Made by a program: the position numbers and the translations under genes. Source: Methanococcoides burtonii DSM 6242 (GTDB taxonomy: Archaea; Halobacteriota; Methanosarcinia; Methanosarcinales; Methanosarcinaceae). From it: DNA of 64,000 bases. The stretch is taken from contig NC_007955.1 in NCBI RefSeq assembly GCF_000013725.1, forward strand, positions 1,581,579 through 1,645,578, given 5' to 3'. Positions 55,272 through 56,340 of this stretch are shown in pieces. Numbering within the stretch: position 1 is the stretch's first letter; every line of letters starts with the position of its first letter. The notes beneath the pieces are model-generated. The model worked only from the letters and a program-made list of their open reading frames with translations, had not been told where the DNA came from and did not search any database.

Positions 55272-55710
55272 GCGCCCTTCACTCCCCAACTTTTAGTAAA
55301 CGTGCCCCTAAAAACTTTAACATATGTATAGTCCATGAAATTTGTGCTGCTGCCGTCAATAAATGAATTAAACAACTATGGACTTAACGAAGTAGTTTTC
55401 TTAATATAGATACATTTTGAGATACCTATACTATAACCAGTCGCGATTAGTATAAATTTATTTTCATTACCTGTTCATGAACATAAGATCTTTACTAAAT
55501 TCGACCACAAATGTAGGTGAATTGTGTTAGTAACAGAGCATAAATAGTATTTGCTGAAAGATCTGCAACAACATTTCGGAAAAGGGAAATTCACCATTTC
55601 AAATGATATGAAATATTTTTTTAAACTTTTTCATAAATAAGATTAATATACCATTATTTTAAAAATGTTGACGAAATTTGTATAAATAAGAAGTTCATCT
55701 GTAGATAACA
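55272..55710. other. AT-rich intergenic region
   Basis: About 440 bases between divergent genes, with no gene, RNA or repeat that I can support. It holds the promoters of the response regulator and carbonic anhydrase genes. Confidence 0.5.
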
Positions 55711-56340
55711 ATGCCGGAAAATATAGAACACACACCATTGACATCCTGGAATCCTGAGATGAAAGCTCCATCAATTGACGATACCGCATATATTCACCCA
55801 CAAGCAATTGTGATCGGAGATGTAACCATTGGAAAAAGAGTAATGGTATCCCCCTTTGTATCCATAAGAGCCGATGAAGGTAGCCCCATCAGCATTGGTG
55901 ACAACAGCAATGTTCAGGATGGAGTTATCGTGCATGGCATGAAGACAATTGACATCAAAGGAAATCCAATTAAAGCGAATTAGGTGAATGTGGAAGGTAG
56001 ACCATATTCAGTATATGTAGGAGAAAGAGTTTCAATTGCTCACCAATCACAGATCCACGGCCCGGCTGCAGTCTGTGATGATGCATTTCTCGCAATGCAG
56101 ACACTGGTATTCAATGCAAATGTTGGTAAGGGCTCCGTGCTTGAACCCAAATCCGGTGCTTTTGGCGTGGAAATTCCAGAGAACAGGTATGTCCCCGCAG
56201 GAATGATGATCACCAAACAGGAAGATGCAGACGCTCTGCCGGAAATATTCGAAGGATATTTCTTTGAAAGGACCAACAGAGATGTAGTTTCCGTGAACAT
56301 CGAACTTGCCAAAGGATATAGGGAAAAGAGTGAAAAATAA
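55711..56340 (+). CDS. cam: Gamma-class carbonic anhydrase with an in-frame TAG (possible pyrrolysine)
   Basis: One frame of 210 codons is broken only by TAG at 55981-55983 (residue 91). It aligns with Cam of Methanosarcina thermophila throughout: WNPEMKAPSIDDTAYIHPQA, SIRADEGSPISIGDNSNVQDGVIVHG, AHQSQIHGPAAV and RYVPAGMMITKQEDAD. The zinc ligands (His in IVHG, two in AHQSQIHG), Arg/Asp of the RADEG loop and Gln are kept; the proton-shuttle Glu after the first His is Lys here. The TAG falls exactly where Cam has one ordinary residue (EDN-I-VEVDG versus KAN-TAG-VNVEG). No signal peptide is seen, unlike Cam. Read-through as pyrrolysine or a nonsense mutation are the alternatives. Confidence 0.8.

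Follow-up and report, generated by a model that had tools for sequence, protein, structure and literature searches.

How is a carbonic anhydrase made from a gene whose reading frame is interrupted by a TAG triplet? The question is raised by the gamma carbonic anhydrase gene (cam) of Methanococcoides burtonii DSM 6242, which lies in the 64,000-nucleotide stretch of DNA analysed here (NC_007955.1, positions 1,581,579 to 1,645,578; hereafter the window). A first-pass annotation had proposed that the TAG is translated as pyrrolysine (Pyl), perhaps only when the charged tRNA is abundant, such that carbonic anhydrase would be tied to growth on methylamines. It had also named three matters bearing on this proposal: whether the genome encodes pylTSBCD, which codon the orthologues carry, and whether the downstream half of the gene has decayed in related strains. 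We consider it very likely, from comparison of the genes, that cam encodes a full-length, 209-residue gamma carbonic anhydrase in which UAG codon 91 is read as Pyl, that this codon arose in one step from CAG, and that TAG is mainly a sense codon in this organism.

Reading frame, protein family and predicted fold

The cam frame runs from the ATG at 55711 to a TAA at 56338-56340 and is open on either side of a single in-frame TAG, as the first-pass annotation had it; the product has 209 residues when the TAG counts as one residue (Table 1). In a plain list of open reading frames the gene shows up as two ORFs, 90 and 118 residues long. Translated through the TAG, it gives a product that can be aligned gap-free to Cam of Methanosarcina thermophila (PDB 1THJ, 1QRE, 3OTM), with 120 of 204 residues (59%) identical (phmmer, E 2.7e-79), and the TAG replaces Ile97, upstream of the AHQSQIHG motif, so that the earlier alignment also holds. 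The product scores 336.7 bits against NCBIfam NF040597, below the curated cut-off of 380, and exceeds the cut-off of Pfam Hexapep, which marks it as a left-handed β-helix of hexapeptide repeats.

All three zinc ligands of Cam (His81, His117 and His122) are present in the alignment, at His75, His111 and His116, and Arg59, Glu62, Asn73, Gln75 and Asn202 are likewise retained; Trp19 is kept, and position 200 is occupied by Ser194. The long acidic loop of Cam spans Leu83-Asn96 and contains the proton shuttle Glu84 (PMC4519908). The M. burtonii protein keeps the length of this loop and Glu62 (here Glu56) and differs in having Lys78 in place of Glu84, with the TAG standing at the first residue beyond the loop.

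An AlphaFold model of the read-through product, in which Lys stands in for Pyl, has a mean pLDDT of 78 and superposes on Cam structures with TM scores of 0.84-0.85 (0.85 to 3ow5). Both halves are thus predicted to form one Cam-like fold, a model that is silent on Pyl insertion. A protein cut at residue 90 would lose both His111 and His116.

Table 1. Features of the cam locus and of other M. burtonii genes interrupted by TAG.
Feature	Position	Strand	Basis or remarks
cam, gamma carbonic anhydrase, Cam subclass	55711..56340	+	ORF reading, family and homology search, predicted structure
Codons 1-90, 5' of TAG	55711..55980	+	zinc ligand His75; Arg53, Glu56, Asn67, Gln69
In-frame TAG, proposed pyrrolysine codon, residue 91	55981..55983	+	CAG (Gln) in six sense-codon orthologues
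Codons 92-209, 3' of TAG	55984..56337	+	zinc ligands His111 and His116; Asn196; purifying selection
Probable archaeal promoter, BRE-like CGAAA then TATAAATA	55672..55688	+	identical in five genomes; spacing judged by eye
DNA polymerase II (D) small subunit, TAG codon 366	1823798-1825420 (L150:3798-5423)		NCBIfam equivalog above cut-off
HerA-like ATPase, TAG codon 350	L149:7748-9034		Pfam DUF87
PAS histidine kinase, TAG codon 199	L144:18131-19975		read-through calling
MtmB, in-frame TAG	L143		Pfam

Promoter and translation start

Because the end of the putative TATA box lies only 22 nt 5' of the ATG (measured by eye), we infer a start site from which the cam mRNA would probably be leaderless or near-leaderless. 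An in-frame TAA stands eight codons 5' of the ATG with no start codon in between (by eye), and an upstream extension could therefore not supply a signal peptide, in which respect the M. burtonii gene differs from that of M. thermophila Cam. Some 47 bases 5' of the TATA region of cam, the four relatives carry another CGAAATT-TATAAATAAGA block that resembles a tandem copy of the promoter; the corresponding block in the window (55620-55645) is partly degraded.

Conservation of the TAG and selection on both halves

The gene was sought in 11 Methanococcoides genomes and found in every one, flanked throughout by the same neighbours. At codon 91, five of the 11 carry TAG (the window genome, M. alaskense DSM 17273, M. 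seepicolus LLY and the metagenome-assembled genomes SMBSF15 and SMBSF09; hereafter the TAG clade) and six carry CAG, an additional TAA counted in one of the latter being the terminal stop of cam. Identity between the two clades is only 62%; the shared synteny in all genomes rules out non-orthology as the cause. The position equivalent to Glu84 (window 55942-55944) is Lys78 in the TAG clade, Gln in other Methanococcoides and Glu in 19 of the 19 other Methanosarcinaceae loci checked.

The downstream half does not have the look of decaying sequence. Among the five TAG-clade genomes, third codon positions account for 18 of the 26 sites that vary 3' of the TAG (p = 2e-4), much as they do for 17 of the 28 variable sites 5' of it, and dN/dS for the half beyond the TAG is well below 1 in most pairs. 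Between clades, the upstream and downstream sides have identities of 62.2% and 62.3% and dN values of 0.272 and 0.278. By these measures purifying selection on cam is as strong beyond the TAG as ahead of it, and the TAA stop and the promoter core are also kept across the TAG clade. The five genomes are closely related, and their common TAG may represent a single ancestral event. The residue at position 91 in relatives is Gln, Leu or Ile, a variation which argues that residue identity there is unconstrained.

Pyrrolysine machinery and release factor

Genes for tRNA-Pyl (anticodon CTA), PylS, PylB, PylC and PylD are clustered with that for MtbA at about 2.18-2.20 Mb of the M. burtonii genome, and PylS was found in all 11 Methanococcoides genomes. 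The means of decoding UAG are thus encoded, and together with the conserved TAG, the CAG of the relatives and the constraint on the downstream half they support the first-pass reading of the TAG as Pyl; the decay that would have spoken against it is absent. A change in release factor was also considered and rejected: each Methanococcoides genome has a single aRF1 that passes the cut-off and in which the NIKS motif is normal, and the clades have no striking difference in the segment inspected. Given this normal aRF1, and a pylB that ends at TAG, some termination at UAG may still take place.

TAG usage across the genome

Termination at TAG is scarce in M. burtonii. A home-made, simple codon-bias caller returned 55 genes in the window, ending in TGA (29) or TAA (26) and never in TAG, in agreement with the first-pass annotation. 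A wider survey took in 483 kb (the window, the region around the pyl genes and 20 stretches from across the chromosome), or 19% of the 2,575,032-base single-contig genome, and gave 359 ORFs, of which 183 end in TGA, 167 in TAA and nine (2.5%) in TAG. Since 19% of all stop trinucleotides (TAA, TAG and TGA) in the sampled sequence are TAG, its scarcity as a terminator is not an effect of composition. Coding sequence continues past the TAG in four of the nine, encoding MtmB, the small subunit of DNA polymerase D (PolD), a HerA-like ATPase and a histidine kinase; the first half of cam scored too low to be counted among them. Read-through calling placed coding sequence on either side of the TAG in these four genes and in cam. 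The other five have short or non-coding extensions, and include pylB, whose non-coding extension is 42 aa long, and one TAG-TAA pair, a tandem stop at the end of a small ORF of 107 aa (L152:9343-9666). In a Methanosarcina control genome, 400 kb contained 11 TAG ends, four with coding extensions and seven with short or non-coding ones.

Both depletion of TAG as a terminator and its presence in unrelated genes, as expected where TAG stands for Pyl throughout a genome, are found within the 483 kb, and to judge from this sample and a simple caller TAG would be mainly a sense codon in M. burtonii. At the PolD site, three Methanococcoides genomes have TAG and the remaining eight CAG; at the HerA-like site, TAG is confined to the window genome and the nine others found have a Ser codon. 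Because TAG and sense codons swap at these two sites, TAG in Methanococcoides looks like a rare sense codon that is gained and lost. Internal TAGs are also carried by genes for a restriction methylase and an RNA ligase in M. alaskense and one sense-clade genome. The base following the in-frame TAG is G in 11 of 18 cases and a purine in 16 of 18, compared with 67% purine at first codon positions.

Two further observations concern the same gene families. The HerA-like gene of M. alaskense has its TAG at codon 82 instead (L220), and histidine kinases bearing TAG occur in M. alaskense and in one sister species of the sense clade as well (L223, L236 and L184).

Weighing the explanations for the cam TAG

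A frame broken only by one stop codon usually points to a pseudogene or a sequencing error. Because five separate genomes share the TAG, an error or a chance stop is excluded, and the constraint downstream of it and the preserved promoter speak against a pseudogene, leaving this explanation next to no probability. Alternatively, UAG could terminate a 90-residue protein, with translation restarting at the GTG at 55984 to give a 118-residue second half that associates with the first. It is true that a GTG abuts the TAG in all five TAG-clade genomes, and that the edge of the acidic loop is a place that might accept a split. On the other hand, GTA or GTG is an ordinary Val codon at this position in the sense orthologues, no ribosome-binding site was seen by eye before the GTG, and the codons inspected 3' of other in-frame TAGs in this genome, such as GTA and GAC, are not usual starts and include no GTG; we regard a split gene as highly unlikely.

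The proposal that decoding is conditional, with full-length Cam appearing only at high levels of charged tRNA-Pyl and its output tracking growth on methylamines, draws on the retention of the cam TAG throughout its clade and on the possibility that the supply of Pyl differs between growth substrates. This part of the first-pass annotation did not find support. In-frame TAGs also interrupt the genes for the PolD small subunit and the HerA-like ATPase, which should be needed at all times and whose conditional loss should be harmful, as well as those for histidine kinases, and few genes terminate at TAG; regulation by methylamines is thereby left unsupported. In addition, the cam site has the look of a one-step change from CAG, sister species of the genus that possess PylS use CAG, no PYLIS-type or other RNA element was matched at the Rfam threshold at the cam TAG, and the predicted fold downstream of it is weak and unremarkable (z -1.6). 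With TAG mainly a sense codon, neither a regulated recoding signal nor a special switch for cam is called for, and we think regulated recoding improbable.

Instead, UAG codon 91 is very likely just decoded by tRNA-Pyl charged by PylS, which would yield a single 209-residue Cam with Pyl at position 91. A single C-to-T transition in the common ancestor of the clade that unites M. burtonii with M. alaskense and M. seepicolus would have converted the CAG codon for Gln to TAG, at the edge of a loop where residue identity is free, and the change may have been tolerated because TAG is mainly sense in Methanococcoides. Near-neutral replacement would be the simplest account of Pyl at this position. The enzyme would probably be cytoplasmic, and trimeric if it is like Cam. 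From the genes, then, we infer Pyl insertion and its efficiency, the activity of the enzyme and the neutrality of the change.

Relation to known pyrrolysine proteins

The in-frame TAG of cam resembles those of MtmB, MtbB and MttB in that these occur in the same organism and are read as Pyl in relatives. However, Pyl is catalytic in the methyltransferases and its position is conserved within each family, whereas position 91 of cam varies in relatives. The parallel to cam is Thg1, the tRNA-His guanylyltransferase of M. acetivorans, a non-methyltransferase enzyme whose gene likewise gained an in-frame TAG that is absent from relatives. In that case the TAG was reported from a single species and the protein was shown to contain Pyl, which is not essential for its activity (PMC2933860), whereas the cam TAG is common to five genomes and its Pyl is predicted. 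Published predictions of Pyl genes for M. burtonii are mostly methyltransferases, and carbonic anhydrase is absent from the main text of these papers; a literature search found no paper on M. burtonii cam. Kivenson and co-workers, in Science in 2025, reportedly described an archaeal code in which all TAG codons stand for pyrrolysine, with M. burtonii among the organisms; TAG as a sense codon genome-wide would be in keeping with what is described here, and there is a fair chance that cam is already on their list of Pyl proteins.

If confirmed at the protein level, read-through of cam would add an ordinary metabolic enzyme to the Pyl proteins beyond the methylamine methyltransferases. Its TAG has a traceable origin (CAG to TAG) common to five genomes; together with the polymorphic TAG of PolD, it points to gain and loss like that of any sense codon, which bears on the course of codon reassignment. 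It also serves as a warning that ordinary gene finding splits TAG-containing genes such as cam. A more specific role for Pyl91 can be imagined, in which its pyrroline ring, lying beside an acidic loop that has Lys78 where Glu84 was lost, helps to transfer protons or to position the loop. We give this only a slim chance; if true, it would make Cam a pyrrolysine-dependent enzyme outside methyl transfer.

Lastly, a fragmented Methanosarcina metagenome-assembled genome (L133, G090:C447) contains a cam gene whose second half is interrupted by two in-frame TAGs, at positions where relatives have Glu and Gln; this gene may be decayed or may represent an independent case.
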